Below are positions 16,000 to 27,463 of a stretch of DNA of 64,000 bases, one piece after another. This DNA comes from Methylobacter sp. GTDB lineage: Bacteria > Pseudomonadota > Gammaproteobacteria > Methylococcales > Methylomonadaceae. The notes below the pieces were generated by a model. The model searched no databases. It was not told the origin of the DNA and was given only the letters and a program-made list of their open reading frames with translations. How positions within the stretch are numbered: position 1 is the first letter of the stretch; each line of letters begins with the position of its first letter. Location of the stretch: the NCBI RefSeq assembly GCF_030680395.1, contig NZ_JAUXVR010000006.1, positions 124,001-188,000 on the forward strand, read 5' to 3'. Made by a program: the position numbers and the translations under genes.

Positions 16000-16470
16000 A
16001 TGACCGACAATCGTAGAGCATTTATCAAAAAGTCAGTTGCCTTCAGCGGTTATGCAATTTTTGCGACCGGCGGACTGCTTACCTCTCCCGAAGCAACTGC
16101 AGAATGGCTAGCCGAGACCACATCCACCAACATACTGCAACAAACCTTAAAGCGTTTGTTCAAAGACCAAAAAATCATCGAGTCCGATAAAATCGACATC
16201 CGGATTCCCAAAACGGCGGAAAATGGCGCGGCCGTCCCTATTGCGGTAACCAGCAGCCTGAACAATGTTGAAAGCATCGCCATTCTGGTTGAGAAAAACC
16301 CCATCCCTTTGGCCGCTAAATTTGAATTATCTCCAGACCTGGAAGCTTTTGTATCGGTCCGCTTAAAGATAGCCGAATCATCCGCTGTAGCCGTCATCGT
16401 AGAGACTAACGAAGGTTTCTTCACCGCCAGCAAGAAAGTCATCGTCACTCCTGGCGGCTGCGAGATTTAG
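16000..16470 (+). CDS. soxY: SoxY, thiosulfate-oxidation sulfur carrier
   Basis: A 156-residue SoxY protein. The N-terminus carries a twin-arginine signal (NRRAFIKKSV followed by a hydrophobic run), so it is exported folded to the periplasm. The body has the SoxY Ig-like pattern (IRIPKTAENGAAVPIAV, SIAILVEKNPIPLAAKFEL). SoxY carries sulfur intermediates on a C-terminal Cys in a GGCGG tail. Here the end is PGGCEI, so the Cys is kept but the last two Gly are replaced by Glu-Ile. It is followed after one base by soxZ. No soxA, soxB, soxX or soxCD is in the window. Confidence 0.9.
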   Translation: MTDNRRAFIKKSVAFSGYAIFATGGLLTSPEATAEWLAETTSTNILQQTLKRLFKDQKIIESDKIDIRIPKTAENGAAVPIAVTSSLNNVESIAILVEKNPIPLAAKFELSPDLEAFVSVRLKIAESSAVAVIVETNEGFFTASKKVIVTPGGCEI

Positions 16471-16471
16471 C

Positions 16472-16783
16472 ATGTCGAGCATTAAAATCCGCACCAAACG
16501 CATGGACGGAAAAATGCAAATCCGGATGCTGATAGCCCACCCGATGGAACACGGGCGTAATCGTGACGCCAGGACCAACGCACTCATCCCGGCGCATTTT
16601 ATTCAGGAACTAACGGTAAAACATAATAAAAACGTTATTATTACCGGCAACACAGGCGCCAACATTTCCAAAGATCCCTACTTTGCTTTTACGCTAAAAG
16701 GCGGCAACCCCGGCGATAAAATCACCATCAGTTGGGTGGATAACCTGGGCAATGAAGATACTCAGGATCATATTGTTAAATAA
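16472..16783 (+). CDS. soxZ: SoxZ, partner of SoxY
   Basis: A 103-residue protein with the SoxZ pattern: IRTKRMDGKMQIRMLIAHPM, GRNRDARTN, PAHFIQELTVKHNKN, SKDPYFAFTLKGGNPGDKI and a final WVDNLG. It forms the SoxYZ heterodimer that presents the sulfur-loaded Cys of SoxY to the other Sox enzymes in the periplasm. It starts one base after the soxY stop. It has no signal peptide of its own, as usual for SoxZ, which is carried out with Tat-exported SoxY. Confidence 0.93.
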   Translation: MSSIKIRTKRMDGKMQIRMLIAHPMEHGRNRDARTNALIPAHFIQELTVKHNKNVIITGNTGANISKDPYFAFTLKGGNPGDKITISWVDNLGNEDTQDHIVK

Positions 16784-19275: not shown

Positions 19276-20010
19276 CTAAAACGGCTCTTTAAACGGCCTC
19301 AAATCCAGCTCATGAGTCCATGCGCTGGGATGTTGTTTGTGGATGGCCCAATAGGTTTCGGCGATGGCATCCAGTTGTAACAAGCCATCCTCACCTTTAG
19401 CCTTAACATAGTCCGGGAACTGGCTTCTTGCCCGTTCGCCGTCGATTACCCCGTCAATAACGGTATGCACCACATGGATGCCATGCGGCGAAAACTCTCT
19501 TGCCATGCCTTGCGCCAGCGCCCTTAAACCGGCTTTAGCCGCTGCAAATCCAGTGAACGGCGGTTTTGCTCTTAGTGACGCTGTCGCCCCGGTAAAAAAC
19601 AGCGTTCCCTTTTGCTTATCCTTCATTGCATTAACCGCTTCCTTGCCGAACAAAAAGGCACCCAGGCAATTTTGCTTCCAAAGCGCGGTAAAGGTTTCCG
19701 CATCCGTTTCCAGCAAAGGCGATGGGATGTTGCTATCTACATTATAGGCGGCAATATCAATACTATAACCATCCAATCGAACCACTTTAAATAAGTGCGC
19801 CACGTCACGTTCAATCGTTGCATCGGCAATCACTATGCTGACTAAGCCGCCGTTTTGCCTGATTTTTTCCGCCACCTGTTGAAGCTTGTCTTCACTTCGA
19901 CCGGCTATATAAACGTGCAATCCTTTTGTTGCAAAATATTTGGCAAGTGTTGCGCCTAAACCTTGCTCCGGACCAACCCCGATAATAACGGCTGAACATT
20001 TTTTCTCCAT
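19276..20010 (-). CDS. SDR family oxidoreductase, catalytic Tyr replaced by Phe
   Basis: A 244-residue Rossmann protein with an unusual cofactor loop, GVGPEQGLGATLAKYF, instead of TGxxxGIG. The expected YxxxK catalytic pair reads FAAAK (in GFAAAKAGLRALAQGMAREF), so the Tyr is Phe. The following HGIHVVHTVIDG stretch is known from a subgroup of SDRs with this Phe. Oxidoreductase activity is therefore uncertain. It lies 123 bases downstream of DUF938 and 8 bases before DUF1326 in the same direction. Confidence 0.88.
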   Translation of the reverse strand: MEKKCSAVIIGVGPEQGLGATLAKYFATKGLHVYIAGRSEDKLQQVAEKIRQNGGLVSIVIADATIERDVAHLFKVVRLDGYSIDIAAYNVDSNIPSPLLETDAETFTALWKQNCLGAFLFGKEAVNAMKDKQKGTLFFTGATASLRAKPPFTGFAAAKAGLRALAQGMAREFSPHGIHVVHTVIDGVIDGERARSQFPDYVKAKGEDGLLQLDAIAETYWAIHKQHPSAWTHELDLRPFKEPF

Positions 20011-20099
20011 CGTTAATTCCCTAAACTGAACATTATTGAGAAGGGCTAAAGGCTAAAAAATTGAAATTCACCTCAAACTTAAACGCAAGATTTTAACGC

Positions 20100-20132
20100 A
20101 AGATTTTTTCGCCCTTCGCCCTTCGTCTGTTT
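20100..20132. repeat. Half copy of the CGCCCTTCGCCTG repeat
   Basis: CGCCCTTCGCCCTTCG followed by a T-run matches one arm of the palindromic repeat at 30890-30947. Another half copy is at about 32475-32498. It lies between DUF938 and the SDR gene. Confidence 0.45.
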
Positions 20133-20789
20133 TTAATCCTTTCTGCCAAATATCAGCGAGAAATTATTAGCAGGCATATTAATCTGCTCTTTTAACTCCA
20201 AACCATGATTTTCAGCCGCTTTTTTCAGGTCTGCGACATCCTTTAAGCCCCATTCCGAAACACCTGCAGAACTTAATGTTTCATGAAACTCTTTATTGGA
20301 ATCGGTGGTGAAGGTACCTTCAACCTGAAACGGACCGTAAATCAGCAAAAAACCATTATCATCCAGTAAATGTGAAGCACATTTCATCATGCCGTCGGCA
20401 ATTGAAATAGGCGCTACCTGAAAAATATTGATACAGAAAATGGCCGCAAATGAATGCGGCTTGCCTGCATTAAACCAGGTTTCAGGGTGGGTTAAATCCA
20501 GATGAGCGGGGTCGGCAATATTATCGTTCTTGTGATCGACGGACAGTTTCTTGATATTTTCAAAAACATCCTGATCCTTATCGGAAGGATGAAAATGCAA
20601 ATGCTCGAAATGCGGCGCAAAATAGTTAATATGCATGCCGCTGCCGCTGGCAAGTTCCAAAACATTTGCCGGATCTTTAGGCAGTTTTTCTTTTAAAACG
20701 CCTAACAGCGGTTCGCGGTTGCGGTTTCCGGCCCAGGCAACATATTCGCTTAATGGATGTGGATCTAAAGGTGGTTTATCTTGGTTCAT
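20133..20789 (-). CDS. DUF938 SAM-dependent methyltransferase-like protein
   Basis: A 218-residue DUF938 protein. The motif VLELASGSGMHINYFAPHF (about 38-56) is the family's version of the SAM-binding glycine loop. Further family blocks are LHFHPSDKDQDVF, NIFQVAPI and GFLLIYGPFQVEGTFTTDSN near the C-terminal half. The start (MNQDKPPLDP) has a strong AGGAG about 9 bases upstream. The substrate is unknown. A near-perfect sigma-54 promoter lies just upstream, and a sigma-54 activator diverges from it, so expression is probably inducible by whatever that activator senses. Confidence 0.88.
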   Translation of the reverse strand: MNQDKPPLDPHPLSEYVAWAGNRNREPLLGVLKEKLPKDPANVLELASGSGMHINYFAPHFEHLHFHPSDKDQDVFENIKKLSVDHKNDNIADPAHLDLTHPETWFNAGKPHSFAAIFCINIFQVAPISIADGMMKCASHLLDDNGFLLIYGPFQVEGTFTTDSNKEFHETLSSAGVSEWGLKDVADLKKAAENHGLELKEQINMPANNFSLIFGRKD

Positions 20790-20825
20790 TTTTAACTCCT
20801 CGTTGTTAGTTACAGTTCAGATAAC

Positions 20826-20842
20826 AGCAAGTGTCGTGCCAG
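20826..20842 (-). promoter_or_regulatory. Sigma-54 (-24/-12) promoter for the DUF938 gene
   Basis: Read on the minus strand the sequence is CTGGCACG, then ACAC, then TTGCT. This matches the sigma-54 consensus YTGGCACG-N4-TTGCW at every defined base, with correct GG-to-GC spacing. The predicted transcript would start near 20815, leaving a leader of about 25 bases that contains the AGGAG site of the DUF938 gene. A sigma-54-dependent activator gene diverges from the same intergenic region. Confidence 0.85.
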
Positions 20843-20903
20843 CAATTATCAACCATTTTTCTATTAAATTACAATAACTTGATTTTTAACGTTGCCAGAT
20901 AAA

Positions 20904-20918
20904 TGAAGCCGTGCTTCA
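20904..20918. promoter_or_regulatory. Candidate operator/enhancer, TGAAGC-CGT-GCTTCA
   Basis: A perfect 6+3+6 inverted repeat lies about 65 bases upstream of the sigma-54 promoter (toward the activator gene) and 30 bases before the activator's own ATG. That is where an upstream activating site for a Fis-type activator would be expected. It could serve both activation of DUF938 and autoregulation. Only one good copy is seen. Confidence 0.4.
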
Positions 20919-20947
20919 ATTAAAGAAAATTTACTTCACAAAACATC

Positions 20948-22507
20948 ATGAACAATAACTCTCTTTCCGATTTAACGCCTGTTTTTTTCCTGCAAACTTT
21001 CATCCTTGAGTTGATGCATGCCAGCGAACAACAGGGACAAAAGCACTGCGAGCAATTGATTGAACACATTGCCAAAACTGCCGGATGCTTTTTTGAAGAA
21101 ACCTATCGGGAAGAAACCCATAACAGCGAATTGCTCGACACAGAAAGCTATACCGAACTCATCCTCGGCCTTAAAAACAATATCGGCGGTAAATTTTCAC
21201 TGGTTTCCAGTAATCAAGATTGCATTACCGTTACCAACAGCTGCTGCCCCTTTGGCGACCGGGTTACCAACTTTCCCGAATTATGCAGAATGACATCCAG
21301 CGTCTTTGGCGGCATCGCAGCCAGAAATTTCGGTTACGCCAAAGTGGAAATCAAACAAAGCATCGCCCGCCACGACGGCAAGTGTGAAGTTTGCGTATAC
21401 ACCAACCCGAACGCGGCAAAAGATCATCCGGGCATGGAATACACCGACACCACACCCGTTAAGGAAATGCAGGATATTAACGAGCTGCACTCGCGCATTG
21501 AGCAGAGCATGCAACAAATCTGGCGCAAACAAAGCAAGCAGCCGACAAAAAAACACCAGCCTCCGGCGATTATTGCCAAATCGCCGACCATGCAGAAAAT
21601 ACTGCAGGCCATCGAAGTGATTGCACCGACATTGGCAACCGTGCTGATTCAGGGGCAAACCGGCGTCGGCAAGGAATTGATCGCGCGCGCCATACATGCG
21701 ATGAGCGACCGCTGCAATAAACCCTTTATCCCGATCAATTGCGGCGCAATCCCCGAAAGCCTGATCGAGAGCGCACTGTTCGGACATGAAAAAGGCGCGT
21801 TCACTGGAGCCATCGAAGTGCATCAAGGTTATTTCGAAAGAGCCGAAGGCGGAACCTTGTTTCTGGATGAAGTCGATACCCTGTCTCCTGCGGCACAAAC
21901 CCGACTGCTTCGGGTACTACAGGAAGGCGAACTGGAACGGGTCGGCGGCAAACAAACCCTGTCGGTTGACCTGAGAATAATCTCCGCAACCAATAACAAC
22001 CTGGAACAACTGGTCAAACAAGCCCTGTTCCGCAACGACCTGTATTACCGCATCAACGTAGTTCGGTTAAGCATCCCGCCGCTGTCCGAACGCCCGGAAG
22101 ACCTGCCGTATCTGGTGCAATTGATTGTGCAGCGTTTGAGCAAGAAATATAACAAGGCGGTTGAATCGGTCAGCCGCGAAGTCATGCAGAAAATTCGCGC
22201 TTATCCGTGGCCGGGCAATGTCCGCGAATTGGAAAACATCCTTGAACGCAGCATTTTATTTGCCACCGGCAAAGAACTGACCGAATTGGATTTACCTCTT
22301 CAAACCAAAACACCTAACCTTGAGCAATGGAAAGACATCAAAGAACAGGCCCTTGCCAAGGCCGAACAAGCGTATCTTGAAAGCGCGCTAAAACAGCATC
22401 AGGGCGATGTAAAAAAGACAGCCGAAGATATGGGCATTACTTCGCGGGCTGTCTATACCAAGTTGAAAAAGTATGGGGTTAATTTGGCGGATTATCGTAG
22501 AGCTTAA
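20948..22507 (+). CDS. Sigma-54-dependent activator with MetOD1 sensor domain
   Basis: A 519-residue NtrC-type regulator. Residues about 10-165 form a methanogen-output-domain-1 (MetOD1)-like sensor, rich in Cys (C47, C92, C99, C100, C113, C146, C149; motifs VTNSCCPFGD and GKCEVCVYTNP), so metal, redox or thiol sensing is plausible. A helical linker follows (about 170-195). The AAA+ domain covers about 205-440: Walker A GQTGVGKE (235-242), GAFTGA (283-288, the sigma-54 contact), and Walker B GGTLFLDEVDTL. A Fis-type helix-turn-helix is at about 475-515 (KTAEDMGITSRAVYTKLKKYG). No receiver domain is present, so direct ligand control is likely. It diverges from the DUF938 gene, which has a sigma-54 promoter. 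Confidence 0.93.
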   Translation: MNNNSLSDLTPVFFLQTFILELMHASEQQGQKHCEQLIEHIAKTAGCFFEETYREETHNSELLDTESYTELILGLKNNIGGKFSLVSSNQDCITVTNSCCPFGDRVTNFPELCRMTSSVFGGIAARNFGYAKVEIKQSIARHDGKCEVCVYTNPNAAKDHPGMEYTDTTPVKEMQDINELHSRIEQSMQQIWRKQSKQPTKKHQPPAIIAKSPTMQKILQAIEVIAPTLATVLIQGQTGVGKELIARAIHAMSDRCNKPFIPINCGAIPESLIESALFGHEKGAFTGAIEVHQGYFERAEGGTLFLDEVDTLSPAAQTRLLRVLQEGELERVGGKQTLSVDLRIISATNNNLEQLVKQALFRNDLYYRINVVRLSIPPLSERPEDLPYLVQLIVQRLSKKYNKAVESVSREVMQKIRAYPWPGNVRELENILERSILFATGKELTELDLPLQTKTPNLEQWKDIKEQALAKAEQAYLESALKQHQGDVKKTAEDMGITSRAVYTKLKKYGVNLADYRRA

Positions 22508-22524: not shown

Positions 22525-22553
22525 CGGTTCATCCCCACGGGCGTGGGGAACAG
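22525..22553. repeat. Single type I-E-like CRISPR repeat, no array
   Basis: A 29-base unit, beginning CGGTTCATCCCC and ending GTGGGGAACAG, has the length, stem (CCCCAC/GTGGGG around GGGC) and flanking bases of type I-E CRISPR repeats. No second copy occurs at a spacer's distance on either side or elsewhere in the window, and no cas gene is present. It lies 18 bases after the sigma-54 activator's stop. The hairpin could double as a terminator, but there is no T-run. Confidence 0.6.
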
Positions 22554-22795: not shown

Positions 22796-24775
22796 CTACG
22801 ATGGAAGAAATGCAGATATGTTGATTCGTTTCTTTGCGGCTTTCAATAATGTTTCTGTTTCGCGTATTACTCTTTCGGCCAACTGGACAATGTCTTTATC
22901 AGATGATGAATCTCGAAGTACTGCTGCTGCCGCTGTCATTGCAGCTGCTTTAGTATTGATCAAATCAGACTCGATGACCTCCTCTTGAAGGGTGATTTTC
23001 GGTACCGGAATCATGACATCGGCAAGTTGGCTACTGTTCATCGTCACGTTTGTCGCTCCGCACATCAGGGGCACCAATAATTCTTGACTCATGGCACTCA
23101 AAAAAATATGGAGGTATTTCGGGTGAATTACCGTTTCATCTTTAACGAATAAAGCGCACATTGTGTTTGCCAACGCAAACTGCCCTTCCTGATAGTGTAT
23201 GCGTTTAATGTCTGCTTTGCCATGACCAGCCGAGGATACAAGAGGAATGCAAACTGCTTTACCTTCAAAGCTCCAATGATCCGCAGATTTTCGATCTTCA
23301 GCAGGTACCACCATTACAAAATTACCGGGTTGAGTGGCCATGTTCGGAGACAATCCATCACGGATCTCACATAGTTCATCAATGCGCATGAGCGGAACCT
23401 CTTTACGATGAATCACTCGATTTGGGAGATCATGCCAGCGTCCCAGCAGATGTACATTCTTGCCACCTGAGAGCACTGCTTTTGATATTGCATAAGACCG
23501 AAGATCGTTATTGGGCCTCTCCCAATGCTGTTTATCGCATATAGATTTTTTGAAGGATTCAATGTGCTTTAGCGCGGCATCGAGCTGGGAACCAGCAATC
23601 GGGTCGCGCGTGTCACTTTGCGAAAAACCATCATTATCAATCTCTATAAACAGAACAGAATCACTTTGTCGGCAGAGACCACGATCAATAATCAAGATGT
23701 GTGTTTTGACGCTAGCATATGGCTTGAAGACTCCATGCGGAAGCGTAATATCTGCGAGCAGAAAACCCTTATCTATCAGTGTTCGCCGTAATTGAGTATG
23801 CCCTCCTTGCGCAACAAAATGTATTCCTTCTGGGATAATAATTCCTGCTCTGCCTGTCGAAGTTAAATGCTCAATAATATAGTCAAGAAACAGAACCTCA
23901 GAACGCTTTGTTGTGATAGAGAAAAGTTTGTGCGGTTTGATGCCGCCTTTCGGCGACATGAACGGCGGATTGGCGAGAATCACGTCGGCATATTCGTTCC
24001 AGCGCTCTTCGGATGTCAGCGAGTCATATTCGAAGATGTGCGGATCGGTGAAGCCGTGCAAGTATAGGTTCACCAGCGACAGGCGCACCATGTCGGGTGA
24101 GATGTCGTAGCCCTTGAAGTTGGTGGCGAGGCGACCTCTTTCATCCGGCGTCAGGGTACTATTGTTATTGGTGTCAGTATTGGTACGCAGAATGTGTTTG
24201 TATGCGGAAATAAGAAAACCCGCTGTGCCGCAAGCTGGGTCAAGGATCACTTCGCCTTTTTTGGGTACCATCACCTCAACGATGAAATCAATGATGTGGC
24301 GCGGGGTGCGGAACTGGCCCGCATCGCCCTGCGAACCGAGAACAGATAGCAGATACTCGAAAGCGTCGCCAAGGCGCTCGGAATGGTCGTAGCTGAATTC
24401 GTCGATGATTTTGAGAAAACTCTTGAGCGTCTCGGGGTCGCGATACGGTAGATAAGCATTTTTAAAAATCTCGCGAAACAGCGCCGGGATGCCGGGATTT
24501 TGCGGCATGGTGGTGATGCCTTCGCCGTAGAGGCCGATCAATTCATGGCCGCCAATACCCGCACTCATCAACTTGGCCCAGCCGTAACGAGCGAAGTCTC
24601 CGGTAAAAAATTTGCGCTTGCCGCCCAGTTCCTCGGCTTCGGCATCCATGTCATCCATGAATTTGTAAATCAGGGCGATGGTGATCTGTTCGACCTGGGA
24701 TTTCGGGTCGGGGACTTTGCCGACGAGAATATCGCGAGCGGTGTCGATACGGCGTTTTGTAGCAGTGTCCAGCAT
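22796..24775 (-). CDS. Type I restriction methylase fused to a partial specificity domain (HsdM-S)
   Basis: A 659-residue N6-adenine methylase. The helical HsdM N-domain covers about 1-135, followed by SAM motif I LDPACGTAGFL (178-188) and catalytic motif IV NPPF (269-272). Residues about 460-650 are not methylase but a specificity-type target recognition domain (LCEIRDGLSPNM, GQFALANTMCALFVKDE, VTMNSSQLADVMIPVPKI) with a C-terminal helix. Only one such domain is present, so recognition would need a dimer or a missing S gene. Downstream lies a frameshifted HsdS end, suggesting the C-terminus has been altered. The start is 15 bases after hsdR in the same transcript. Confidence 0.85.
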   Translation of the reverse strand: MLDTATKRRIDTARDILVGKVPDPKSQVEQITIALIYKFMDDMDAEAEELGGKRKFFTGDFARYGWAKLMSAGIGGHELIGLYGEGITTMPQNPGIPALFREIFKNAYLPYRDPETLKSFLKIIDEFSYDHSERLGDAFEYLLSVLGSQGDAGQFRTPRHIIDFIVEVMVPKKGEVILDPACGTAGFLISAYKHILRTNTDTNNNSTLTPDERGRLATNFKGYDISPDMVRLSLVNLYLHGFTDPHIFEYDSLTSEERWNEYADVILANPPFMSPKGGIKPHKLFSITTKRSEVLFLDYIIEHLTSTGRAGIIIPEGIHFVAQGGHTQLRRTLIDKGFLLADITLPHGVFKPYASVKTHILIIDRGLCRQSDSVLFIEIDNDGFSQSDTRDPIAGSQLDAALKHIESFKKSICDKQHWERPNNDLRSYAISKAVLSGGKNVHLLGRWHDLPNRVIHRKEVPLMRIDELCEIRDGLSPNMATQPGNFVMVVPAEDRKSADHWSFEGKAVCIPLVSSAGHGKADIKRIHYQEGQFALANTMCALFVKDETVIHPKYLHIFLSAMSQELLVPLMCGATNVTMNSSQLADVMIPVPKITLQEEVIESDLINTKAAAMTAAAAVLRDSSSDKDIVQLAERVIRETETLLKAAKKRINISAFLPS

Positions 24776-24790
24776 GATATAAATTGGCCT

Positions 24791-27325
24791 TTAAGCAGCA
24801 AATTGGTTCAAAGACACGTAGTCCTTGATGTAATTGGGTATAAGCGTGCGGAATTCTTTAGGCACAGCCTTGAAATCTTTCAAGGGAAAAATTGAATTGG
24901 TAGCAAGGTCGGTTAGTTCGCCATTATCAATAATGTGGCGAATCTGGTCGCTGGTGACATAGGCTTTGAAATAATTCTTGAGTGCGGGAATAGCCTCAGC
25001 TTCTTCCGGTTTGTAGTCGGCGACAAATTTCGAGAATTCTTCTTCAAGCAGTTCATCCTTGGATTTGAATCGCGGGATTAGGCCGAAGATTTTTTCGAGA
25101 ATTTCTCGCAGGCTGAGGCGGCGATCCACAGCGGCGGCTTTGCGAAGCTTATCGAGATTATAGTACTCGTTAGGCTTGTCAAAAACCTCACGATTCACAT
25201 AATCAATCACACGATCCCACTGGCCTGCCTCGACGGCCTCCACGATGGCCGCGTTCTCTCGCATGGTGTCTTCGAATTTCTCGTAGAACATACGGTCGAT
25301 CTTCATACCCTCGTAGCCGATGGTCTCTTCCTGAATGGTGGAGATAATGTCGGCGCCAAGGTGCTCGTAAGAAGCGCCCGTAGGCCCAGTGCCGCCGCCT
25401 CCGCCTTCGTCTTTCCCTTTTGGTTTTGGGAGCTTGAGAATTTCGTCGTAGTTGAATTCTTCCTCAAAATATTCGCAGTTAGCGAAGAAATCAAAAAGCT
25501 TGTAGGAAGTCTTGCCTGCTTCCTGAATACTTTCCTTGTGATCTTTATCGTGGAGCTCCTCGAGGAAGTTATGTTTGCGGGTGCCGCGCCCTTTTATCTG
25601 GATAAAATCGGTAGGAGAAAAGATCGGGCGGAACAAACCCAAATTGAGCAGGTCCGGGCAATCATAGCCTGTGGTCATCATGCCGACAGCAACGCAAACG
25701 CGAGCTTTGCTGGTTTTGTAGGTGGGCAAAAAGTTAGCCGAGCCGAGCAGGTTGTTATTGGTGAAATTGATAGTGAACTGCTGGGCATCGGTAATTTGTG
25801 ATGTGACCTGCACGGCAAAGTCAGACTGATATTTACCTGGGAACATTATGTCCGCCATAAGATTCAGAATCTGCGCAAGTTTGGCGGCATGATTCTGGCT
25901 GACAGCGAAAATGATGGATTTGCCTATCTCGCCGCTGATGGGGTCGCGGAGCGCATGTTCCAGAAAGGTTTTGCAAAAAAGCTGGTTGGTGCCATCAGCA
26001 AAGAAGCGTTTCTCAAATTCGCGCTGTTTGTAGGTTTCTTTTTGATCTTCGCCTTGGTCATCTTTGAATTCAACAACGAATCCATCTTCCGACAAAAGCT
26101 GCGTAGTGATCTCGCTGCGGGCATCCACAACGGTGGGATTAATAAGAAATCCCTCTTTCACACCATCGAGCAGGGAATAGCGGTAGGTGGGCTGACCATC
26201 ATCGCAGCCGAAGGTGCGGTAGGTGTCGAGCAACAACCGGCGTTCGAACTCACGCGGGTCCCTGGTGGAGGGCTTGGCCTTGTCAAATTTTTTGAGATAA
26301 TCGCGCGGCGTGGCGGTGAGGCCGAGCTTGTAGCCGATAAAGTAATCGAAGACCGCACGAGCATTGCCTCCAATGGAGCGATGGGCTTCGTCTGAGATAA
26401 CGAGGTCGAAGTCCGTAGGCGAAAAGAGCTGCTGGTACTTGTTGTTGAAGAGCAGCGACTGGACGGTGGTAACAACAATCTCGGCGCGTCGCCAGTCGTC
26501 GCGGTTTTCTTTATAAATGACGGTTTGGTAATCGCTGGCGAGCACCTTGTTGAAAGCTTTCTTGGCTTGGTCTTCAAGCTCTAAACGATCCACTAGAAAG
26601 AGAACGCGCCGAGCATTACCCGTACGCAAAAAGAGTTTGATGACGGCCGCAGACGTGAGCGTCTTGCCCGTGCCTGTAGCCATCTCAAAAAGGAAGCGGT
26701 CTTTGCCGTCTTTGACAGCACTTTGCAGCGCGACCATGGCTTTATTTTGGTAGGGCCGCAGGAAACGCAGACTATTGGTTTCGATGAAGCCTGAGCGTTC
26801 GTCCTCATTATTCCAAGCAGCCTCGGCAGCATAGCCGGGACGCTGCGTGAGAACAATGTAGTCGTCGTCAACGGTCTCTTCGATAAGACGCTTGGGATCT
26901 GGAACGGTTTTTTGGTAACCCATCACCGACGTGGGCGACGGAAAGGTTGTGATAACGTAGGGGTTGCCGCGCTCAAGATCCCAGAAATAATGCAGGTTGC
27001 CGTTGGAAAGGATGACGAAGCGGCTGTTCTGAGAACGTGCGTATTTACGGGCTTGTTCCTTACCAACAAGCGGGCTTTTATCTTCAGCCTTTGCTTCAAG
27101 GACTATAAAGGGAAAGCCTTTTTCGTTGAGCAGAAGAAAATCAATAAACCCTTTTGAAGATTTCTCAAAGTTTTCGCCAAGGGCGTCAAGGTCCTGTGTC
27201 TTGATAGTGACACTGGGTTCGAGCTGGATATTTGCAGGTGATTTGCCTTCGGCGAAGAAACGCCAACCAGCAACTTCGAGCAGTTTGTTGATCTTGATGC
27301 GGGCCGTAGCTTCTTTGACTGTCAT
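24791..27325 (-). CDS. hsdR: Type I restriction enzyme R subunit, EcoEI type
   Basis: About 844 residues from MTVKEATARIKINKLLE. An N-terminal nuclease domain has the PD-(D/E)xK pattern FIDFLLL...FIVLEAKAEDKSP. Two helicase lobes follow, with Walker A MATGTGKTLTSA, DEAH ISDEAHRSIGG, SAT-like GLTATPRDY, and motif VI QIKGRGTRK. The C-terminal 200 residues are the EcoEI_R_C region (YEGMKIDRMFYEKFED ... YIKDYVSLNQF). A polyglycine hinge (GGGGG) precedes it. The frame extends upstream to a TTG at 27430 and an ATG at 27361, but homologues I recall begin near KINKLLE, so I set the start at 27325; there is no clear ribosome site. The enzyme translocates and cuts DNA unmethylated at the HsdM-S site. 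Confidence 0.85.
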   Translation of the reverse strand: MTVKEATARIKINKLLEVAGWRFFAEGKSPANIQLEPSVTIKTQDLDALGENFEKSSKGFIDFLLLNEKGFPFIVLEAKAEDKSPLVGKEQARKYARSQNSRFVILSNGNLHYFWDLERGNPYVITTFPSPTSVMGYQKTVPDPKRLIEETVDDDYIVLTQRPGYAAEAAWNNEDERSGFIETNSLRFLRPYQNKAMVALQSAVKDGKDRFLFEMATGTGKTLTSAAVIKLFLRTGNARRVLFLVDRLELEDQAKKAFNKVLASDYQTVIYKENRDDWRRAEIVVTTVQSLLFNNKYQQLFSPTDFDLVISDEAHRSIGGNARAVFDYFIGYKLGLTATPRDYLKKFDKAKPSTRDPREFERRLLLDTYRTFGCDDGQPTYRYSLLDGVKEGFLINPTVVDARSEITTQLLSEDGFVVEFKDDQGEDQKETYKQREFEKRFFADGTNQLFCKTFLEHALRDPISGEIGKSIIFAVSQNHAAKLAQILNLMADIMFPGKYQSDFAVQVTSQITDAQQFTINFTNNNLLGSANFLPTYKTSKARVCVAVGMMTTGYDCPDLLNLGLFRPIFSPTDFIQIKGRGTRKHNFLEELHDKDHKESIQEAGKTSYKLFDFFANCEYFEEEFNYDEILKLPKPKGKDEGGGGGTGPTGASYEHLGADIISTIQEETIGYEGMKIDRMFYEKFEDTMRENAAIVEAVEAGQWDRVIDYVNREVFDKPNEYYNLDKLRKAAAVDRRLSLREILEKIFGLIPRFKSKDELLEEEFSKFVADYKPEEAEAIPALKNYFKAYVTSDQIRHIIDNGELTDLATNSIFPLKDFKAVPKEFRTLIPNYIKDYVSLNQFAA

Positions 27326-27463
27326 TTTATTTTTAGGAATATTTTTTTGAAGCGCATCCATACACTTCAGAAAAGTAGGGACAGGCTTATTTTGCCCGTT
27401 TCTTTTTATATTATCATCAAAGGTGAGCAAACGATTAAGCTACTTACCCCTTACACAACCACT

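Follow-up and report, generated by a model that had tools for sequence, protein, structure and literature searches.

A divergent sigma-54 promoter module with a MetOD1-sensor activator in Methylobacter sp. and its association with CS2/COS-hydrolase-like genes

The stretch of Methylobacter sp. DNA analysed here (64,000 nucleotides, hereafter the window) carries, between a DUF938 gene and a divergently oriented activator gene, a sigma-54 box and a pair of tandem dyads which, together with the activator and as judged from the sequence, almost certainly constitute a real promoter architecture. The locus is best explained, with a confidence slightly better than even, as a divergent, self-contained sigma-54 circuit, whose activator would belong to a MetOD1-sensor family dedicated to sulfur stress of the CS2/COS type. 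Sequence comparison supports the architecture and its conservation, as well as the gene associations and the presence of RpoN; what we infer from them concerns the ligand and the sensor's metal or Fe-S state, the use of IHF, autoregulation, and the function of DUF938, of a short-chain dehydrogenase/reductase (SDR), of DUF1326 and of PpoB2.

Promoter, dyads and regulator in the window

A full-consensus sigma-54 box on the minus strand upstream of the DUF938 gene had been claimed in the first-pass annotation, and such a -24/-12 promoter (CTGGCACGACACTTGCT) is indeed present at about 20826-20842; it reads CTGGCACG-ACAC-TTGCT (20842-20826), or TGGCACGACACTTGCT (20841-20826), with the GG of the -24 and the GC of the -12 element separated by 10 bases. 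It is the single match to TGGCACGNNNNTTGCW with zero mismatches in the window, where simple arithmetic gives a chance expectation of about 0.015. With up to two mismatches the window contains 8 matches, fewer than the 13.3 that shuffled sequences give on average, while a looser box is found 30 times genome-wide versus 7 for the reversed control pattern; since the looser box is common and the matches in the window do not exceed those in shuffles, the motif alone proves little. A chance match was nevertheless rejected on grounds of position and conservation, though the motif by itself is not rare. The DUF938/regulator locus is the only place in the genome where a dyad and a box are combined at a distance of 55-85 nt. 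Counting from the GC of the -12 element, transcription is predicted to start near 20815, and the DUF938 gene starts at 20789, behind a GAGGAG; RpoN is encoded in the genome (PF04552, E 1.6e-66).

Reading the minus strand from the ATG of the regulator, the order of the elements is distal dyad, proximal dyad, IHF consensus and box. The distal dyad (TGAAGTAAATTTTCT, 20924-20938, minus strand) is imperfect and lies 9 nt before the ATG; the proximal one (TGAAGC-CGT-GCTTCA, TGAAGCACGGCTTCA, 20904-20918, minus strand) lies 20 bp from it, and its edge is 62 nt from the box. Between dyads and promoter, on the same strand as the box, a perfect IHF consensus is found (AATCAAGTTATTG, that is WATCAANNNNTTR, 20872-20884, minus strand). 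The proximal dyad is the inverted repeat previously proposed as the activator site: the repeat is there and is conserved, but the candidate site is a tandem pair rather than a single repeat. A terminator scan had flagged the repeat at 20904-20918; its partner dyad and the fixed spacing point to a binding site instead. The distal dyad lies 5-17 nt from the start of the regulator in 115/127 relatives, and this abutment suggests that the regulator may control its own expression through it.

The divergent gene (20948-22507, plus strand) encodes a sigma-54-dependent activator of 519 aa, with an N-terminal MetOD1 (V4R/Bet3-like) sensor and a Fis-type HTH. The domains matched in Pfam (MetOD1, Sigma54_activat, AAA lid and HTH_8), with no Pfam match to a receiver domain, agree with the initial description of a sigma-54 activator with a Cys-rich MetOD1 sensor and no receiver. 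The PF00158 match has an E-value of 4e-69; GAFTGA (283-288), G236/G241/K242 and D307/E308 are invariant in 24/24 regulators, and the AAA+ domain, GAFTGA, Walker motifs and HTH that characterise an enhancer-binding protein are all found. The sensor is a MetOD1 member (PF18546, 49.1 bits against a cut-off of 23.8), with C100, C113 and C146 invariant in 29/29 sequences; it is 97% identical to the sensor of M. tundripaludum SV96, the genome of the window being Methylobacter-like. No solved relative of the sensor was retrieved by sequence search at E up to 1; its AlphaFold2 model (mean pLDDT 75) has a predicted V4R/Bet3-like fold, with TRAPP subunits as the best matches (E 2e-4) and DmpR (6iy8) at rank 12 (E 2.5e-3).

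An N-terminal V4R/Bet3-like sensor, an AAA+ domain, a Fis HTH and no receiver are features shared with the V4R activators DmpR, XylR and MopR, and DmpR and XylR likewise have paired upstream sites. Unlike DmpR and XylR, the regulator is matched by MetOD1 and not by XylR_N or V4R (Pfam, E 0.001), and its neighbours are not aromatic-degradation genes; it would therefore work like these activators without being a member of the group, the known kind being the V4R-type sigma-54 activator, from which sensor, neighbour set and host range differ. A second MetOD1 protein, a SufR-like HTH-MetOD1 regulator, is encoded in the window's own genome (L002, 1189-1812, plus strand), beside genes that by eye are ferredoxin-like and globin-like; it matches SufR at 79 bits, below the cut-off of 178.8, and MsvR weakly. 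PMC6034842 gives C203, C216 and C244 (spacings 13 and 28) as the SufR ligands, and the three Cys as needed for function; in the sensor studied here the spacings are 13 and 33, the first being the same, whereas the DNA-binding part and mode of SufR and MsvR differ from those of the regulator. A direct homology between the sensor and SufR was considered and rejected: a profile of the regulator sensor family gave no match in L002, so that kinship of the Cys sites is only a lead.

Conservation of the cis-regulatory module

Searches for the sensor gave matches in 104 of the 237 family genomes and in 126 of the 311 order genomes covered; 160 loci were reduced to 134 distinct regions upstream of regulator orthologues, and dinucleotide shuffles, 6700 in total, served as control. 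With counts that are not independent, orthologous sequences being related by descent, tandem dyads 19-21 bp apart are found in 104/134 regions versus 0/6700 shuffles, at least one TGAAN7TTC in 129/134 (2.7% of shuffles), and a box matching at 10 or more of 12 positions in 99/134 (1.5% of shuffles). The best box has GG-N10-GC in 130/134 regions (8.7% of shuffles), that is, the -24/-12 bases are kept where the gene pair is kept, which is the outcome anticipated when a comparison with related genomes was first proposed. It is this conservation across orthologous regions that lifts the box above chance.

The spacing between the elements is constrained as well. The centre of the proximal dyad is 67-73 bp from the box in 99/134 regions and 60-62 bp in 11/134, with none at 63-66 bp, the second class lying about one helical turn nearer the box; under the strict pattern the distal dyad stands alone in 17/134 regions and neither dyad is well placed in 7/134, which have no dyad 60-100 bp from the best box. 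By position, the dyads are conserved upstream sites at looping distance and on the same helical face, at which binding is predicted. In a subset of 45 regions, selected so that similarity stays below 60%, the outer arms of the dyads carry 1.75 and 1.49 bits/column, the box 1.1, the spacer 0.3 and the downstream sequence 0.17; dyads and box served as anchors and are favoured in this comparison, the shuffle test being the fair one. A 9/9 IHF consensus is present in 27/127 regions, versus 1% of shuffles.

Partner genes and the wider regulator family

In the window, the minus-strand operon begins with the DUF938 gene (PF06080, 20133-20789), whose product has a predicted class I SAM-dependent methyltransferase fold; the best fold matches are O-methyltransferases, which do not tell the substrate, and no solved relative was found by sequence at 0.001. 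A 122-nt gap (20011-20132) follows, at the position occupied in many relatives by a beta-carbonic-anhydrase-like (beta-CA) gene; a remnant of this gene was searched for in the gap and none was found. The next genes, all on the minus strand, encode by domain match the SDR (19276-20010) and DUF1326 (PF07040, 18659-19267), and then PpoB2 (PF09948, 17904-18659; DUF2182 until renamed in Pfam), a membrane protein of a copper-chaperone family. PpoB2 (COG5486) is described in PMC2855505 as transferring copper to tyrosinase in Marinomonas; the family is the same as in the PpoB1-PpoB2 operon of that organism, but the neighbour of PpoB2 is here DUF1326, and no tyrosinase domain was found among the eight genes scanned. 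SoxY and SoxZ genes (16000-16783, plus strand) face the end of the operon and represent a possible link to sulfur.

Enzyme names of the partner genes (beta-CA; CS2H for CS2 hydrolase) were assigned by homology. Of the genes encoded opposite to the regulator and no more than 5 kb from it, DUF938 is found at 97/134 loci, a 190-aa beta-CA at 61/134 and CS2H at 25/134; at least one of the three occurs at 130/134 loci, the four exceptions being L049 (SDR only), L073 (contig end), L219 and L227. The CS2H of L064 is a fragment. At L227 (4115-4882, minus strand) a second regulator copy of Nitrosomonas supralitoralis faces a gene with a MEDS/DcmR sensory domain, with a similar box. Regulator and cis-module face either a DUF938-(beta-CA)-SDR-DUF1326-PpoB2 operon, in which the beta-CA frequently lies between DUF938 and SDR and in which many relatives have SDR, DUF1326 and PpoB2 behind DUF938, or a CS2H-like gene; in closer relatives, CS2H-like or beta-CA genes occupy the position of the window operon. 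Both arrangements are combined in L053, where, going out from the regulator, CS2H comes first and the DUF938 operon next, each with a separate site and box; in three genomes (L143-L145) a DUF938-SDR-DUF1326-PpoB2 operon that does not adjoin the regulator has a copy of dyads and box in front of it.

These counts bear on the narrower reading of the first-pass annotation, namely that the circuit is inducible and serves a DUF938 methyltransferase, sulfur gases playing no part in it. Its promoter, activator site and divergent regulator stand, as does the notion of a local, self-contained circuit probably extending to the SDR, DUF1326 and DUF2182 genes, and DUF938 is both the first operon gene in the window and the commonest partner of the orthologues (97/134; at 45/134 loci it is seen with neither CA nor CS2H, contig ends truncating some of these). 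The regulator family does not, however, always target DUF938: the cis-module faces CS2H without DUF938 at 24/134 loci, and ten distant members (see below) are partnered by CS2H or CA with no DUF938 match, so that the narrower reading appears highly improbable.

The family assignment of the CS2H-like proteins bears on a second alternative, which takes the beta-CA and the CS2H-like proteins for ordinary carbonic anhydrases of a CO2/bicarbonate circuit, with a sensor responding to inorganic carbon or redox. Both proteins do belong to the Pro_CA family, and the 190-aa beta-CA is closer to 5ztp, 6jqc and 1ylk, deposited as carbonic anhydrases, than to the COS hydrolase 3vqj, its scores against 3vqj and against the CS2 hydrolase 3ten being lower. 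The 217-aa CS2H of a nitrifier (L184), on the contrary, has the archaeal CS2 hydrolase 3ten as its best solved match (E 7.2e-53; next chain, E 2e-23), with 97/180 aligned residues identical (about 54%); the zinc-site motifs C-x-D-x-R and H-x2-C are kept, and closest solved relative and zinc motifs alike place the L184 and L053 proteins with the CS2 hydrolases. A need for CO2 would, moreover, leave DUF938, SDR and PpoB2 unexplained, and we regard the inorganic-carbon circuit as quite improbable. In PMC7308577, COS hydrolase and CS2 hydrolase are clade D beta-CAs, the latter from Acidianus and Acidithiobacillus; the resemblance to these enzymes (identity of about 54%, motifs kept) concerns nitrifier and a few methanotroph genes, whereas the CS2H-like gene differs in facing a sigma-54 activator, in occurring in ammonia and methane oxidisers, and in that its activity is predicted. 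A CS2H-like gene 70% identical to that of Nitrosomonas lies on a plasmid of Mycobacterium paragordonae (L249, NZ_CP025547.1, 6001-6843), where the incomplete gene table annotates no MetOD1 sigma-54 regulator within 6 kb.

The genome of the window has no counterpart of CS2H: three matches to the CS2H query were obtained, none above 35% identity, the best being a beta-CA at 33%. PF00484 marks four places of the carbonic-anhydrase family in this genome; the beta-CA just mentioned, which is clade-D-like and shares 83% identity with the type found in the operon (L155), is on contig C14, with no combined dyad-box pattern within the 3.4 kb examined. Since a beta-CA gene occurs in 209/237 genomes of the family, its presence alone says little; with no CS2H, and no beta-CA in the operon, the visible output of the window circuit is the DUF938 operon alone.

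Methanotrophs have the module, and so do Nitrosomonas and its kin, whose sensors are 76-84% identical. In a named genome set, 256 entries encode a relative, and the best 80 loci, which were kept, comprise 45 Methylo- names, 29 Nitroso- names and 6 others (L166, L180, L190, L205, L207 and L213). All 33 examined loci with nitrifier or unclear labels, a few of them near-duplicates of one another, have a box at 10 or more of 12 positions, 107-116 nt from the regulator, facing a divergent CS2H in 26 cases (including L216), the DUF938 operon in 6 and the MEDS-domain gene in 1 (L227). In a quick regulator tree, with long branches and open forks, 11 thinned nitrifier-labelled rows group together and L187 stands apart, both among methanotroph rows, L180, L190 and L213 being only presumed nitrifiers. 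One or more transfers between methanotrophs and nitrifiers are likely.

Beyond the close orthologues, ten paralogues (L133-L142, sensors 38-45% identical) have a CS2H match nearby in 10/10 cases, with a box at 10 or more of 12 positions upstream of CS2H in 9/10; at the tenth locus (L141) the CS2H frame is of 134 aa only and no good box was found. ZIP transporter genes are present at four paralogue loci. MetOD1 occurs in 16 plasmid records, one of which is a Methylobacter plasmid with a paralogue (L248, NZ_CP091425.1), where a paralogous cluster of carbonic anhydrase (CS2H), zinc ribbon, ZIP, regulator and cupin genes lies beside iscB and IS elements; the others hold annotated MetOD1-containing proteins or regulators, from Cereibacter and others. 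A sample of the class (369 genomes) gave sensor matches in 32 genomes, 14 of which have the sensor within an open frame longer than 500 aa; ten of these 14, with sensors 36-44% identical, have within about 4 kb a CS2H (nine, at 63-92% identity) or a beta-CA (one, at 76%), and in 10/10 a GG-N10-GC box at 10 or more of 12 positions is found in the 350 nt upstream of that gene. None of the ten has a DUF938 match. That the regulator family is tied to CS2/COS-hydrolase-like genes, as an association between sequences, is thus highly probable.

The same sample bears on a third alternative, a copper/sulfide stress circuit in which the invariant cysteines would respond to Cu(I), to sulfide or to a metal/Fe-S state, with an operon serving to protect or reload copper enzymes, CS2/COS-hydrolase-like genes belonging to it because their product is sulfide. 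Methanotrophs and ammonia oxidisers use copper monooxygenases, and names of these two groups make up most of the best 80 named loci; PpoB2 is of a copper-chaperone family, three Cys are invariant in the sensor, and soxYZ is nearby. PpoB2 is, however, missing at many loci that keep the promoter, and the ten distant members keep CS2H or CA and the box while giving no match to the copper-monooxygenase family PF02461; a copper/sulfide circuit seems accordingly rather unlikely. A general tie between regulator and copper monooxygenase was also rejected: PF02461 occurs in 11/369 genomes and the full-length regulator in 14/369, with both in 4 only, three of them from one order, and 7/11 PF02461 genomes have no regulator. 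It is thus the hydrolase-like genes, and not the copper monooxygenase, that the regulator accompanies; a tie to the latter would hold at most for close orthologues.

Proposed circuit and flanking observations

In the CS2/COS-type sulfur-stress circuit that we favour, a signal would reach the cysteine-bearing MetOD1 sensor and release the AAA+ domain; the activator, bound to the two 15-bp dyads (TGAAN7TTCA, 20 bp apart), would contact, through an IHF-bent loop, the sigma-54 RNA polymerase seated some 70 bp from it on the -24/-12 box; formation of the open complex would then switch on the minus-strand operon. These steps are modelled on the standard mechanism of the regulator family; at the distal dyad, the activator would probably also limit expression of its own gene. 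Since genes like those of CS2 hydrolase and COS hydrolase accompany the regulator family, the trigger would most likely be a small C1-sulfur compound (CS2 or COS), or else sulfide derived from one; judged from this gene company, we give such a trigger an even chance. The switch may accordingly be a defence, raised on demand, against small sulfur poisons. In the genome of the window, the DUF938-SDR-DUF1326-PpoB2 output may represent a downstream arm (methyl transfer and copper handling), and its putative role in the downstream handling of sulfur and copper is the weakest part of the reading.

CS2 is a known inhibitor of ammonia monooxygenase, and inhibits ammonia oxidation; the ammonia monooxygenase of Nitrosomonas europaea is reportedly the subject of a 1990 paper on CS2, which PMC7170481 lists among its references. 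A more specific proposal, to which we assign somewhat less than an even chance, is that of a dedicated CS2/COS-responsive switch, in which ammonia oxidisers would have acquired a regulator-promoter-CS2-hydrolase module from methanotrophs, and the module would shield their copper monooxygenase against CS2. If true, it would provide the first transcription factor for CS2; an inducible CS2-hydrolase circuit common to nitrifiers and methanotrophs would bear on nitrification inhibitors, on the soil COS/CS2 sink and on the sulfur tolerance of methane oxidisers, and DUF938, DUF1326 and PpoB2 would be placed in a testable regulon. In a literature search with subscription journals mostly outside its scope, nothing was found that joins MetOD1 or 'methanogen output domain' with sigma-54, CS2 hydrolase with sigma-54, or 'carbon disulfide hydrolase' with Nitrosomonas, nor anything on DUF938, DUF2182 or DUF1326; 'CS2 hydrolase' and methanotroph co-occur as terms in one paper, unconnected in the passages concerned.

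Two further features lie beyond the regulator gene. A perfect 27-nt stretch, which we take to resemble a type I-E CRISPR repeat, is located 18 nt past the stop codon of the regulator (22526-22552, plus strand), and is the sole copy in the window at up to three mismatches. Two long ORFs (22796-27430, minus strand) read by eye like HsdM and HsdR of a type I restriction-modification system.
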